From Candidatus Endomicrobiellum roisinitermitis (lineage in GTDB: Bacteria; Elusimicrobiota; Endomicrobiia; Endomicrobiales; Endomicrobiaceae), in NCBI GenBank assembly GCA_031287855.1, contig JAITSL010000030.1, positions 1-44,529 of the forward strand: a stretch of DNA of 44,529 bases, read 5' to 3'. The position numbers were made by a program, and so were the translations under genes. The notes below the pieces were generated by a model. It made no database searches and was not told the DNA's origin. It saw nothing but the letters and a program-made list of their open reading frames with translations. Within the stretch, counting starts at the first letter, position 1. Each line of letters starts with the position of its first letter. Of the stretch, positions 20,469-44,529 are shown one piece after another.

Positions 20469-21794
20469 ATGAAATATAATGTTAAGTTTAAGTTATTAAT
20501 GTCTTTTATTGTATTAAGTATTGGTTTTCCAAAAATACTTTTTGCAATAAAATATGAAAACAATCTTTTTATAAAAGGGGTCCGCCCTATGGGTATGGGT
20601 GGAGCATTTACTGCCATTTCCGATGATGAGAATGCGTTTTTTTATAATTGCGCAGGCATAACCCAAATATATGATGACACACTTCAAATTTTTTCTTTAA
20701 GGGCAGATGTGGATAATCACGTAGTTAAAGCTTATGCTTTTTATAATGAAAACAAAGACAATATACTCCATTTTATGGACATTTCTCCTGAAAAACAAGG
20801 AGGATTTGTTGATGAGGTAGTAAATAGTATGTTAAATTGTGCTCCAAACGTTTTGGTTTCTTTACCAAACATATTATTTATAAAAAGACCAATAGACATT
20901 AACAGAAACAAAAATTCTTTAAATTTTGGGTTAGGTTTTTTTTCTTATGTTAAAGCTATTGTAGGGTTTGACAAAGGTGCGTTACTTCCATCATTATCAT
21001 ATAAAGGTGAGGTTACAGGTGTTGGGATGTTACCGATAGCATTTAGAATATATTCTTTAAATTCATTAAACCTTCCAGGCGTGCTATCTTTGGGGGTTAA
21101 TTTAAAATATATGTATAGGCTAGTAAATTCAAAGGAAGACCTTTCTCTTATAGAAATAGGAAAGTTTGATTTTGGCGGTAATTTTTTTGATGCAACAGCT
21201 TTTGGGATGGATTTTGGAGTGATATATTATTTAAACTCTAGGTGTTTTTTCGGGATAAACGCAACAGATTTGTATAATTCTCAATTTAAATATAAAAAAT
21301 CTAAAATCCATTTTGGTGATGAAAAAAAATTAAGTTCAACAATAGATACTTATGACCCTCAAGAAATCAATCCGATCTTAAATATAGGTTGTGCATATAT
21401 CCCAGAAAAGCTTTATTATTGGCCTGGCAGTTATATATATACAAATGATAATATTACATTTGCGTTTGATTTGACAGATTTAAATAATCCTAATGAATCG
21501 TTTTCTTTAACACCTTTTAAAAAGATTCATATTGGAACTGAGTGTAGGTTAAACTTATTTTCTTTAAGAGCAGGTTTAAATTCAGGTTATCCATCCTTTG
21601 GTGCGGGTATTAGTTTAAAAGCGGTTAATCTAGAATATGCTTTTTATGGTGAAGAAAAAGGCATATTGCCAGGGCAAGAGCCAGATTGGGTACACAGTTT
21701 TTTGCTGTCTATTAAGTTACGTTGGGGCAACAAATTTACTCGACAGTTAGTAAGGATGAAGAAAAAAGTCTTGTTAGATATTTGCCTGTCTTGA
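20469..21794 (+). CDS. PorV/UPF0164-like outer-membrane beta-barrel protein, 3' end frameshifted
   Basis: 441 residues. Signal peptide about 1-26 (cleavage after LFA). The mature start GVRPMGMGGAFTAISDDENA is the hallmark of the UPF0164/PorV/FadL-like barrel family. The barrel appears to end at HSFLLSIKLRW (about 416). The following residues (about 420-441, ending KKKVLLDICLS) look out of frame: the +2 frame here reads SKDEEKSLVRYLPVL, and the duplicated copy at 43 kb has the matching KFSKEEKRIVRYLPVL. So the natural C-terminus was probably longer and is now shifted. The barrel itself may still be functional. Confidence 0.7.
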   Translation: MKYNVKFKLLMSFIVLSIGFPKILFAIKYENNLFIKGVRPMGMGGAFTAISDDENAFFYNCAGITQIYDDTLQIFSLRADVDNHVVKAYAFYNENKDNILHFMDISPEKQGGFVDEVVNSMLNCAPNVLVSLPNILFIKRPIDINRNKNSLNFGLGFFSYVKAIVGFDKGALLPSLSYKGEVTGVGMLPIAFRIYSLNSLNLPGVLSLGVNLKYMYRLVNSKEDLSLIEIGKFDFGGNFFDATAFGMDFGVIYYLNSRCFFGINATDLYNSQFKYKKSKIHFGDEKKLSSTIDTYDPQEINPILNIGCAYIPEKLYYWPGSYIYTNDNITFAFDLTDLNNPNESFSLTPFKKIHIGTECRLNLFSLRAGLNSGYPSFGAGISLKAVNLEYAFYGEEKGILPGQEPDWVHSFLLSIKLRWGNKFTRQLVRMKKKVLLDICLS

Positions 21795-21829
21795 TGGAAA
21801 CAAAAATAGTTTAAAACTCAAGTTATTTT
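21555..21829 (+). repeat. Duplicated segment, copy A (partner 42823-43056)
   Basis: The 3' part of the outer-membrane gene and about 40 bases beyond it recur near 43 kb at roughly 90% identity by eye. Copy A has 33 bases that copy B lacks (LNSGYPSFGAG in protein terms). Both copies are directly oriented. Confidence 0.85.
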
Positions 21830-22020
21830 TAAGCTTTTATAATTCTGTCAAAAATGGGAAAGGCGATGCTTATATGTACAAATGTAAAGTAAACATTAAG
21901 GATGTAATAATTAATGCAGAAATGAATGTAGACGAAGATGTAGATGTTGATGACAAGTATATTTTTGTTAAAAGTTACGGTGGTTTTGAGGGGGTTTGGT
22001 TAGCAAAGAGATTGAGGTAA
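21795..22020 (+). pseudogene. Out-of-frame continuation of the outer-membrane gene region
   Basis: After the stop at 21794, a third frame is open to TAA at 22018-22020 and reads SLKLKLFLSFYNSVKNGKGD..., ending SYGGFEGVWLAKRLR. An ATG at 21874 would give a 48-residue protein. It is more likely the former C-terminal part of the upstream gene, lost through two frameshifts, than an independent gene. No family recognised. Confidence 0.4.
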
Positions 22021-22048
22021 AACAAGGTGTATTAAGCAGATATGAAGT

Positions 22049-22063
22049 CCTGATTTGCCCCCG
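22049..22063 (-). repeat. Dispersed intergenic motif, copy 2
   Basis: The reverse complement reads CGGGGGCAAATCAGG, matching the motif at 1801-1813. It lies in the 177-base convergent gap between the outer-membrane gene remains and the RNase H gene. Nothing else was recognised in that gap. Confidence 0.4.
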
Positions 22064-40723: not shown

Positions 40724-41479
40724 TTAATAAATGTCTATAGAAATAGGGCAATGGTCAGATCCTAAAGTTTTGTTTGCTATGTTAGCTGCTTTTAAAAATT
40801 TGGTTGCGCTTTTTGAAACAAAAAAGTAGTCTATTCTCCAACCAACATTTCTTTCTCTAGAATCTGTTTTGTAGTCCCACCAAGTATAGTTGCTAGGTTC
40901 ATTGTTAAAATGTCTAAACGTGTCAACAAAATTGCTAGCAACAAGCTTATCTAGTTTTTCTCTTTCTATTAGCATAAACCCTGAAGTTTCTTTGTTTTGT
41001 TTTGGTCTTGCTAAATCTATTGGCAAGTGTGCAGTGTTATAATCTCCACATATAATTACATCTACATTTTTTAAAGCTTTAATATATTCTAAAAAATAAT
41101 CATAAAATTCTAGCTTATAGTTAAGACGATCTTTTGATGCTCCACCGTTTGGAAAGTATACATTAAAAAGCACAAACTTTTCAAAATCAAGTTTTAAGAC
41201 TCTCCCTTCTTTGTCAAACTTTTCATTTTCTACACTAGCGCTTACAGATTTTGGCTTTATTTTAGACCACACAGCAACACCGCTATAGCCTTTTTTTTCT
41301 GCGCAGGAACAATAAAAATTGTATTCTTTTATTGTCTCTACATCTTTTGGAAATTTAGCTTTGTCTGCTTTTGTTTCTTGCACACATACAATTTCAGCAT
41401 TTTCTTGATTAAACCAGTTAAGAAAGTTCTTTTTATATATTGCTCTTATACCATTTACGTTCCAAGACACTATTTTCAT
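40724..41479 (-). CDS. xth: Exodeoxyribonuclease III (AP endonuclease)
   Basis: 251 residues, normal length. EEP fold: MKIVSWNVNGIRA, IVCVQETKAD (Glu34 metal ligand), CGDYNTAHLPIDLARP (Asp/Asn pair near 145-147), WRIDYFFVS and GSDHCPISIDI (catalytic Asp-His at the end). It cleaves at abasic sites in base excision repair. AAGGAATT lies just upstream of the ATG, which follows 9 bases after the stop of the broken surface-repeat gene on the same strand. Confidence 0.96.
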   Translation of the reverse strand: MKIVSWNVNGIRAIYKKNFLNWFNQENAEIVCVQETKADKAKFPKDVETIKEYNFYCSCAEKKGYSGVAVWSKIKPKSVSASVENEKFDKEGRVLKLDFEKFVLFNVYFPNGGASKDRLNYKLEFYDYFLEYIKALKNVDVIICGDYNTAHLPIDLARPKQNKETSGFMLIEREKLDKLVASNFVDTFRHFNNEPSNYTWWDYKTDSRERNVGWRIDYFFVSKSATKFLKAANIANKTLGSDHCPISIDIY

Positions 41480-41488
41480 TTTAATTCC

Positions 41489-41962
41489 TTAAAAAAAAAT
41501 AGCTGCCATCATGATTATTATACACCAAAATAATATTATCATAACAGGCAGCTTGCCTGTTTTAATAAAATTTACAAGACCTAATTGGATACCTTGCATA
41601 TCTTCTGTAACGTTTATAAAACCAAGCTGTAATCCTTTAACAGATTGAGCTTTATTAAAAAAGCCCCACTGCCCTTCGGAAACTTCATTTTCGTTCCAGT
41701 TTACAAAACCTAACTGTAACCCATCAAACGAGTTTGTAATTGTAACAATTCCTGCTTGTCAGGCTGTTGAGTTGTCAGTTTTAGAATAAATCCAGTTGAA
41801 CACTACACCTTTAACGTTTGGAGTATATATACCAATACCTAGCTCGAGCCCTTTGAGTGTGTCGTCTTTAGGTATAGCAATTTCGTCCCATAAGGAAAGT
41901 TTAATTGGTGTTGACGCAAAAGAAAACCAAGCAAATCCTGCTAATAAAAGTAAAGCTAACAC
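41489..41962 (-). pseudogene. Exported surface-repeat protein interrupted by one TGA
   Basis: From the GTG at 41962 there is a signal peptide (LALLLLAGFAWFSFAS), then KLSLWDEIAIPKDDTLKGLE and the first repeat-like units. A TGA at 41759-41761 stops the frame after KTDNSTA, but the same frame continues without any other stop for 89 codons. It carries repeats GLQLGFVNW, GLQLGFIN and IQLGLVN and ends at TAA (41489-41491) after a hydrophobic segment. The GLQLGxVN repeats resemble LA_2272-type surface proteins. A single nonsense change in an otherwise intact frame suggests very recent loss. AAAGGAGG lies 17 bases before the GTG. Confidence 0.75.
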
Positions 41963-42176
41963 AAGTTTTTCGTTTACTACCTCCTTTTAGAGGTGCATTA
42001 ATTAGTGCTGAATATGCAAAGTTATCACTTAAAATGCTGCTTTTATGTCAAATAGGTTACATAATTTGTAAGAGGTTCACAAGGTTTATGCTTTGTCAAC
42101 AATATTCTTATAAGGTTTAATAAGTTTAAGATATTCACACATTTTAAAGGGTTTGAGCTTTTTTAGTTGATTATGT

Positions 42177-42640: not shown

Positions 42641-43056
42641 GCAGAAGGGTTTGAGAGTATTTTAAATCAATAGTTGGACAATTTTTTCGAAAGAAGATAA
42701 AAAAAACTTGAAAACTTAGTGAGATATTTTGTAGAAACTATAAATAATAGGGTCATAACTATGGAGACTCAATTCTATGAGGAGTTTGCTCGGACTAATG
42801 TTCAAATGAATCTCAACGTCTTTTTATTTTCTTTAAGAGCAGATATTAGTTTAAAAGTGGTTAATCTAGAATATGCTTTTTATGGTGAAGAAAAAGGGAT
42901 ATTGCCAGGGCAAGATCCAGGCTGGATACACAGTTTTTTAGTGTCTATTTAAGTTACGTTGGTGGTGACAAGTTTAGTAAAGAAGAAAAACGCATTGTTA
43001 GATATTTGCCTGTCTTGATGAAAACAAAAATAGTTTAAAACTTAAGTTATTCTATA
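42640..43056 (+). pseudogene. Decayed chimeric gene ending in a second copy of the outer-membrane barrel 3' end
   Basis: One frame runs AEGFESILNQ, stop, LDNFFERR, stop, then KKLENLVRYFVETINNRV...NVQMNLNV (a helical segment, no family recognised), and joins LFSLRADISLKVVNLEYAFY...HSFLVSI. The last part is the end of the PorV-like protein at 20.5 kb with 11 residues deleted in frame. An extra T after HSFLVSI causes the stop at 42952; the former tail KFSKEEKRIVRYLPVL follows in another frame. Confidence 0.7.
42823..43056 (+). repeat. Duplicated segment, copy B (partner 21555-21829)
   Basis: About 234 bases at roughly 90% identity by eye to the 3' end and downstream flank of the outer-membrane gene, in the same orientation, 21 kb apart. 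It ends shortly before the large repeat-protein gene. Confidence 0.85.
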
Positions 43057-43072
43057 AAATGGAACCTTGGAG

Positions 43073-44529
43073 ATGATAAATAAGTATACAGGAGTAAGAT
43101 TATTAGTAATATGTTGCCTGATTTTGAATATATCTAGTTACTCTACTATGGCTCAAAATATAGCCATAAATAATAATGTAGTTAATCATAACGTTATTGG
43201 AAACGGAACCCCCCCAAACGGTGCTCCTCCTTCAGTAGTAGCCGCTTCTAATAATGCGGTAACTCTTAGCGGTGGAACAGGAGTTAATGGATTTGTTGTA
43301 GGAGGTATAAAGCGAGGGGGAATTGTAGAAGATGTTGTATCTAATACAGTTAGCATAGACATAAATAATGGAGGCCTCCCAGGTGCGGGAGTTATTACAG
43401 TGTCGGCATACGGAGGACGTGCTGAAGATGCTTTACAAGACAGCAATGCAATAAATAACAGGTTAAGTATACTAAATGGAATTATTAATGTGTCGGGTGT
43501 GGGTGGTATTGCAGCAAGAGGAAGAGCAGGAGAGAACGTATTGGAGATGACAGGAGGGAGTGTTGATGATTATGTGTGCGGAGGGCTAAGTACTAGAGAC
43601 GCGCTAAACAACAGGTTAACAATATCAGGAGGGAATATTGGCGTGGGAATAGTAGTAGCGGACGGAGTGTATGGTGGGCGTTCTTCTCAAGAGAGAGCGG
43701 AAGGGAACGTAATGGAGATGACAGGAGGGGTTGTTGTTGGTAATGCGTACGGAGGGTGGGGTCAGTTAGACGCGCTAAACAACAAGCTAACAATATCAGG
43801 AGGGAATATTAACGGTGCAATTGGAGCGTATGGTGGACATTCTGTGGCAGGGAGAGCAGAAGGGAACGTAATGGAGATGACAGGAGGGACAATTACCAAT
43901 AATGCGTGTGGGGGATATGGTAATGGTAACGGTGATGCGATAAATAACAAGTTGAAGATTTCGAGTGGAAATATTGGAGGAGGAGCGCATGGAGGGTATT
44001 CTCAGGCAGGGAGAGCGGAAAGGAACGAGTTGGAAATGGCAGGAGGGACGATAGGCAGAAATGCATGTGGAGGGATTAGTATTGTAGGAGGTGCAATAAA
44101 TAACAGGATAACGATAACAAATGGAAATATTGAAGGGCTATGTGTAGGTGGTGTAGGTGCGGTAATAGCGACTGATAATCAAGTTAAGATACTAGCTGGA
44201 AATTTTCGTAATGAGGTTAATAGTGGGAGATGTATAAATGGAGAAGCAAAGGCAAATATATTGGAGATTGCAGGTGGAGTATTTGCAAAAGACGTCATAT
44301 CAGGATACTCTCGAACATCTAATGCGAATGAGAACAAAGTAATAATTAGTGGGGGAGAGTTTTTTGCAGATGTTTATGGAGGCAAGTCTAAAGATGGAGG
44401 GGCAGTAGGGAACACGGTAGAAATTAGCGGGGATCCAAAATTTTCAACAAATACATTTATATATGGAGGATTCACTTCTACTGCTTCAGTAGCAGATGTT
44501 TTTACGAATAATACTTTAAATATAAAGAC
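43073..44529 (+). CDS. Large exported glycine-rich repeat protein (adhesin/autotransporter-like), 3' end outside window
   Basis: At least 485 residues, open to the window edge. Signal peptide about 1-28 (RLLVICCLILNISS..., cleavage after TMA). Then comes a short Pro-rich part (GNGTPPNGAPPSV) and from about residue 140 a series of units of 53-57 residues. Each unit has two halves: NNKLTISGGNI...AYGG and RAEGNVMEMTGG...ACGG. This pattern suits a beta-helix passenger domain. Base composition (many GGA/GGG/GCG codons) is clearly richer in G+C than the rest of the window. A C7 run lies at codons 46-48. GGAG abuts the ATG, an unusually short spacing. Homologous family not identified. Confidence 0.8.
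   Translation, partial: MINKYTGVRLLVICCLILNISSYSTMAQNIAINNNVVNHNVIGNGTPPNGAPPSVVAASNNAVTLSGGTGVNGFVVGGIKRGGIVEDVVSNTVSIDINNGGLPGAGVITVSAYGGRAEDALQDSNAINNRLSILNGIINVSGVGGIAARGRAGENVLEMTGGSVDDYVCGGLSTRDALNNRLTISGGNIGVGIVVADGVYGGRSSQERAEGNVMEMTGGVVVGNAYGGWGQLDALNNKLTISGGNINGAIGAYGGHSVAGRAEGNVMEMTGGTITNNACGGYGNGNGDAINNKLKISSGNIGGGAHGGYSQAGRAERNELEMAGGTIGRNACGGISIVGGAINNRITITNGNIEGLCVGGVGAVIATDNQVKILAGNFRNEVNSGRCINGEAKANILEIAGGVFAKDVISGYSRTSNANENKVIISGGEFFADVYGGKSKDGGAVGNTVEISGDPKFSTNTFIYGGFTSTASVADVFTNNTLNIK
43209..43215 (+). repeat. C7 homopolymer near the start of the repeat-protein gene
   Basis: Seven consecutive C in a genome where such runs should be very rare, placed about 137 bases after the ATG. 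In the present state the frame is open. A candidate slippage site. Confidence 0.6.

Follow-up and report, generated by a model that had tools for sequence, protein, structure and literature searches.

The open reading frame that runs off the end of the window very probably encodes the N-terminal 485 residues of a type Va (classical) autotransporter of about 898 residues, a surface-displayed protein that probably serves as an adhesin or host-contact protein. The window, the whole 44,529-nucleotide stretch of DNA analyzed here, corresponds to contig C44 in the MAG (1.26 Mb in 57 contigs; G000) of a Candidatus Endomicrobiellum (Elusimicrobiota), an endosymbiont of termite flagellates. All characterised Endomicrobia that live as endosymbionts in termite gut flagellates belong to this genus (PMC11257099). 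Its nearest relatives in the named genome collection belong to the same genus: Ca. Endomicrobiellum incisitermitis (G030, contig C34), Ca. E. cubanum (G019, contig C7) and Ca. E. siamense (G004, contig C9).

The window protein and its repeats

The frame (43073-44527, 485 aa) is free of stop codons up to the contig end. Its translation begins with what appears by eye to be an export signal, MINKYTGVRLLVICCLILNISSYSTMA-Q (43073..43156, + strand), which has a basic start, a hydrophobic stretch LLVICCLIL and then ...STMA-Q, so that cleavage would take place after A27. The signal region forms a helix (residues 4-21) in the AlphaFold model and aligns with the same feature in the relatives. The passenger that follows (43157..44480, + strand), as outlined by repeat analysis and by the AlphaFold β-solenoid, contains about 16 half-units rich in glycine and asparagine, each about 26 residues long. 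They have the pattern N-x-h-x-h-x-G-G-x-I-...-Y-G-G-x-S, are mostly 25-28 residues apart and form 53-residue pairs in the middle of the passenger.

The repeats are also visible at the DNA level as two families, D1 (four copies of 103 nt, spaced by 159-171 nt) and D2 (four copies of 59 nt). The autocorrelation of the protein sequence peaks at 0.266 at a lag of 53, compared with a maximum of 0.202 over 500 shuffles, and Gly, Asn and Ala make up 19%, 12% and 9% of the window protein, respectively. The initial annotation had described an exported repeat protein of no recognised family. The signal-like N-terminus and the excess of repeats over the shuffled expectation bear out the first part of this description. 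The second part holds for the truncated 485-residue protein, which matched no family in Pfam and NCBIfam scans, but not for its continuation on contig C32, which belongs to PF03797.

Structure of the passenger

The structure prediction proposed in that annotation, carried out with AlphaFold on the window protein, gave a confident model of a regular β-solenoid (pLDDT 89.6, pTM 0.88), a typical 26-residue coil of which is composed of short strands (EE--EEEE---EE---EE--EE). In a PDB fold search, no solved structure matched the passenger model at E ≤ 0.001. The top match was a Ca-dependent β-helical antifreeze protein (E 0.013), with Antigen 43 (Ag43) and UpaB being weaker. The solenoid fold may perhaps be unlike the canonical three-stranded passenger helix. 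A search of a viral fold library produced three matches with E < 0.001, and as their TM-scores were about 0.1, they were judged to be a chance likeness of repetitive strands.

Continuation across the contig break

The last 52 bp of the window (44478..44529, + strand) mark the contig break and are exactly identical to the first 52 bp of the reverse-complemented contig C32. Across this overlap, the reading frame continues for another 413 residues, which comprise a linker and an autotransporter barrel, and stops after ...MFKVKFYL, resulting in a total length of 898 residues. Given the C32 join, the protein does extend well beyond the window, as had been proposed, instead of terminating soon after it, and the extension of the contig revealed an anchor of the suspected type, the autotransporter β-domain PF03797.

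The assembly graph at this point has two entries (C44 and C42) and one exit (C32), as the last 119 bp of C44 are identical to the end of contig C42, which encodes a shorter paralogue. The MAG assemblies of these symbionts break at such loci because the autotransporter genes are repeated, and the 119-bp end common to both contigs makes the passenger partner of the C32 barrel ambiguous in the window genome. The C44 gene might then be a truncated, barrel-less passenger (a pseudogene or a freely secreted protein), with the C32 barrel belonging only to the C42 paralogue. This ambiguity and two precedents, a truncated barrel-less paralogue on contig C19 and a remnant at 21820-22060, speak for such an arrangement, which we nevertheless regard as improbable. 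The C44 frame is unbroken up to the end of its contig and contains the conserved junction DVFTNNTLNIK, which precedes the barrel in every complete relative. Whatever comes next, the two copies do not differ over the final 119 bp ahead of the break. Furthermore, in Ca. E. incisitermitis, contig C34 (the exonuclease/autotransporter side) overlaps contig C13 (the autotransporter end, a lipoprotein and guaB) by exactly 119 bp. Since the flanks of this C34/C13 pair match those of C44 and C32 around one gene, the sequence comparison favours C44 to C32 as the right join.

Ca. E. siamense and Ca. E. cubanum have a different gene, of unknown family, after the autotransporter, and in Ca. E. siamense this gene leads into TonB/ExbB/ExbD genes. 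In the window genome, the TonB/ExbB/ExbD operon begins at the edge of contig C46. Both downstream arrangements would follow if the surroundings of the locus had been rearranged or if the same barrel were present in a second copy. In Ca. E. siamense (L043:8795-12634), TonB, ExbB and ExbD are found behind a 692-residue repetitive protein that has no Pfam match.

The C-terminal barrel and the export route

The C32 continuation matches PF03797 with 50.7 bits (cut-off 26, E 2.7e-13), and it aligns along almost its entire length (residues 6-427) with annotated autotransporters of other phyla at an E-value of about 1e-28. The orthologues of Ca. E. siamense (973 aa) and Ca. E. cubanum (931 aa) are uninterrupted and carry the signal, the repeats and PF03797 in a single frame. 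In the full-length model (four sequences), the barrel had a pLDDT of 25-35, too low to resolve the 12 strands and the α-helical linker expected of a type Va barrel. As the barrel is poorly modelled, its fold rests on the profile evidence. PDB sequence searches with the barrel and passenger profiles returned no match. In Ca. E. siamense (L043:12645-15563) and Ca. E. cubanum (L047:353-3145), a lysine-rich, probably helical extension continues for several dozen residues past the end of the barrel; it is absent in C32.

With its signal-like N-terminus, modelled β-solenoid passenger, linker and C-terminal PF03797 domain, the protein resembles type Va autotransporters (AT-1, PF03797/TIGR01414), and the genome also encodes a BamA-like protein, a 759-residue Omp85 on contig C12 (204.9 bits). 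It differs from them in its 26-residue coil, for which no solved passenger structure gave a match at the E-value threshold given above. The type Va route, as outlined in PMC9289746, consists of Sec export, BamA-assisted barrel insertion and display of the passenger as a rod. By this route, the protein would be exported by Sec and its signal cleaved, the C-terminal β-domain would enter the outer membrane with the help of BamA, and the solenoid passenger would be threaded outward and stay there as an extended surface rod. We infer secretion and surface display on these grounds. By analogy, the protein would then mediate adhesion to, or contact with, the host flagellate or neighbouring cells, a reading based on the autotransporter class, the repeats, the divergence of the passenger and the intracellular life style.

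The locus and its remnants

An exodeoxyribonuclease III-like gene, named from its sequence (40727..41479, − strand), is the conserved, divergently oriented neighbour by which the locus can be recognised in the sister species. It is 92.4% identical to its counterpart in Ca. E. incisitermitis and 76.9% identical to that in Ca. E. siamense. Between it and the autotransporter (41500-41980, − strand) lies a broken frame with repeated GLQLG-type motifs, which is probably a decaying gene. Immediately upstream of the autotransporter, a remnant (42844..43051, + strand) duplicates positions 21608-21827 of the window with 85% identity over 222 nt. The latter correspond to the 3' end of a PorV-like gene region, and a PorV-like gene lies ahead of the orthologous autotransporter of Ca. 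E. incisitermitis.

Next to this second site is a decayed autotransporter copy (21820..22060, + strand), in which the junction region is frameshifted (tblastn identities of 56% and 74%, E 5e-11). Some paralogues being truncated or decaying, the window copy could also be on its way out. In Ca. E. incisitermitis (L044:1-2910), the autotransporter start is closely preceded by a barrel remnant that is fused to it in frame, which suggests an old tandem copy. On the other side of the break, near guaB on C32 (L050:14301-15812), there is what appears by eye to be an ATP/ADP (nucleotide) translocase-like protein; such a translocase has been reported for the genus (PMC11257099).

G+C content and origin

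The G+C content of the gene is well above that of its neighbours, as had been noted initially (42.0% versus 29.9% for the window; 50.7, 46.8 and 28.5% at codon positions 1, 2 and 3). It had also been suggested that the gene was acquired by transfer, and its overall G+C content is indeed 2.3 points (about 3.8 s.d.) higher than expected, with a GC3 of 28.5 versus an expected 22.1. However, the excess resides mainly at codon positions 1 and 2, where its G+C equals or exceeds the highest values among the other window genes, and a few of them reach the same GC3. Its amino acid sequence written with host codon usage is expected to have a G+C content of 39.65 ± 0.62%, so that about four fifths of the excess can be attributed to the Gly/Ala-rich composition of the protein. 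A small residual preference for purine-rich codons (GGA, GGG, GAG and AAG) has no explanation in the composition.

The distribution of relatives also argues against a recent foreign source. The locus is conserved in the sister species, other genera of the family have homologues of the same architecture, similar proteins are found further afield in the phylum, and the passenger had no match in the plasmids searched. Passenger matches were found in 5 of 100 genera, namely the genus itself, three others of the Endomicrobiaceae and one distant Elusimicrobiota genus. Both Endomicrobiaceae members from other genera that were scanned have TIGR01414 barrels. In the proteins of the distant genus, the repeats are similar and the C-terminus resembles a barrel by eye, with no barrel family match. 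With a G+C excess that is mostly compositional, a syntenic locus and relatives elsewhere in the Elusimicrobiota, there is no support for a recent acquisition, which we consider unlikely. Transfer may have occurred at the origin of the family, as distinct from recent acquisition, donor searches outside the phylum having been limited. Single-protein and alignment searches of genome contigs, which used short degenerate patterns insensitive to repeats, found no relatives outside the genus, and unannotated faecal phage records gave two weak matches.

Paralogues, divergence and distribution

The paralogue search suggested in the initial annotation found several related genes in the window genome, some of them truncated: those on C22 (1000 aa), C5, C17, C32/C44/C42 and C49 (the last from a Pfam search), the C19 copy and the remnant described above. 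Between the window genome and Ca. E. incisitermitis, the identity is 55.5% for the passenger, 81.7% for the barrel and 92-95% for the flanking genes. Among the orthologues at the exonuclease locus, passengers are 48-56% identical to that of the window and barrels are 68-82% identical to that of C32. The rapid divergence of the passenger may reflect host-specific binding. It is not general to all family members, since the C22-type orthologue is conserved throughout, including its passenger (87.3%).

Either PF03797 or the passenger profile was detected in 22 of 42 genomes of the genus, a count that takes no account of kinship. By the same kinship-blind count, the family is present in none of the 13 genomes with an estimated size below 1.05 Mb and in 22 of the 29 above it; two larger near-complete genomes (one of 1.3 Mb and one of 1.1 Mb) also have no family member. 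As a surface family that diverges fast, persists in part of the eroding intracellular genomes and is missing from the 13 smallest, it offers a concrete candidate for the means by which symbiont and flagellate make contact.

Comparison with known systems

The export class is well known, and the autotransporter anchor makes the initially suggested role as an adhesin or host-contact protein plausible. PMC11257099, the principal comparative study of the genomes of these symbionts, makes no mention of autotransporters. In the literature search, no paper paired Endomicrobium with autotransporters or dealt with autotransporters in Elusimicrobiota, a phylum that the available text of PMC3419190, PMC9289746 and PMC4827864 does not name among autotransporter holders. 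The fast-changing repeat family of these symbionts has apparently been undescribed so far.

Antigen 43, UpaB and AIDA-type adhesins likewise have passengers built of a solenoid only. Their fold matches to the window protein (7koh, 4kh3 and 6bea) are weak (E 0.3-0.7, query TM-scores 0.12-0.20) and demonstrate no close relation in structure or sequence. The occurrence of Antigen 43 and S-layer β-solenoids among such matches, together with regular repeats that have no inserted catalytic domains, would fit a factor of cell-cell or self-association like Ag43, or a structural surface layer, instead of a host-binding adhesin. All the PDB fold matches are non-significant, however, and we hold this to be the less likely function, albeit one to be taken seriously.

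The chlamydial Pmp proteins, as described in the available text of PMC10715098, are also multi-copy, divergent autotransporters with repeat passengers in an intracellular bacterium. Their repeat motifs (FxxN and GGA[ILV]) are unlike those of the window protein, and the comparison is one of analogy, not of sequence. Speculatively, flagellate-dwelling Endomicrobiellum might possess recombining multi-copy autotransporters with a non-canonical 26-residue-coil solenoid and nearly shared barrels, which would form a Pmp-like, host-facing variable surface system that is lost stepwise as the genome shrinks.

The LOFI repeat protein of Campylobacter (NCBIfam NF038205) has a repeat of similar length (about 23-26 residues). 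The window protein does not match this family. The C42 paralogue (30.3 bits) and one homologue in Ca. E. incisitermitis (27.5 bits) exceed its cut-off of 25 bits, and the other relatives fall below it. In the window genome (C42:1-825) and in G022 (contig C24, L085:1127-3910), an autotransporter-like barrel continues in the same frame into a C-terminal peptidoglycan-binding domain of the OmpA/Pal type (PF00691; for the homologue in G022, 1.1e-18), and there are hints of comparable fusions in genomes G026 and G009. Such a fusion would link the cell wall with a passenger on the surface.
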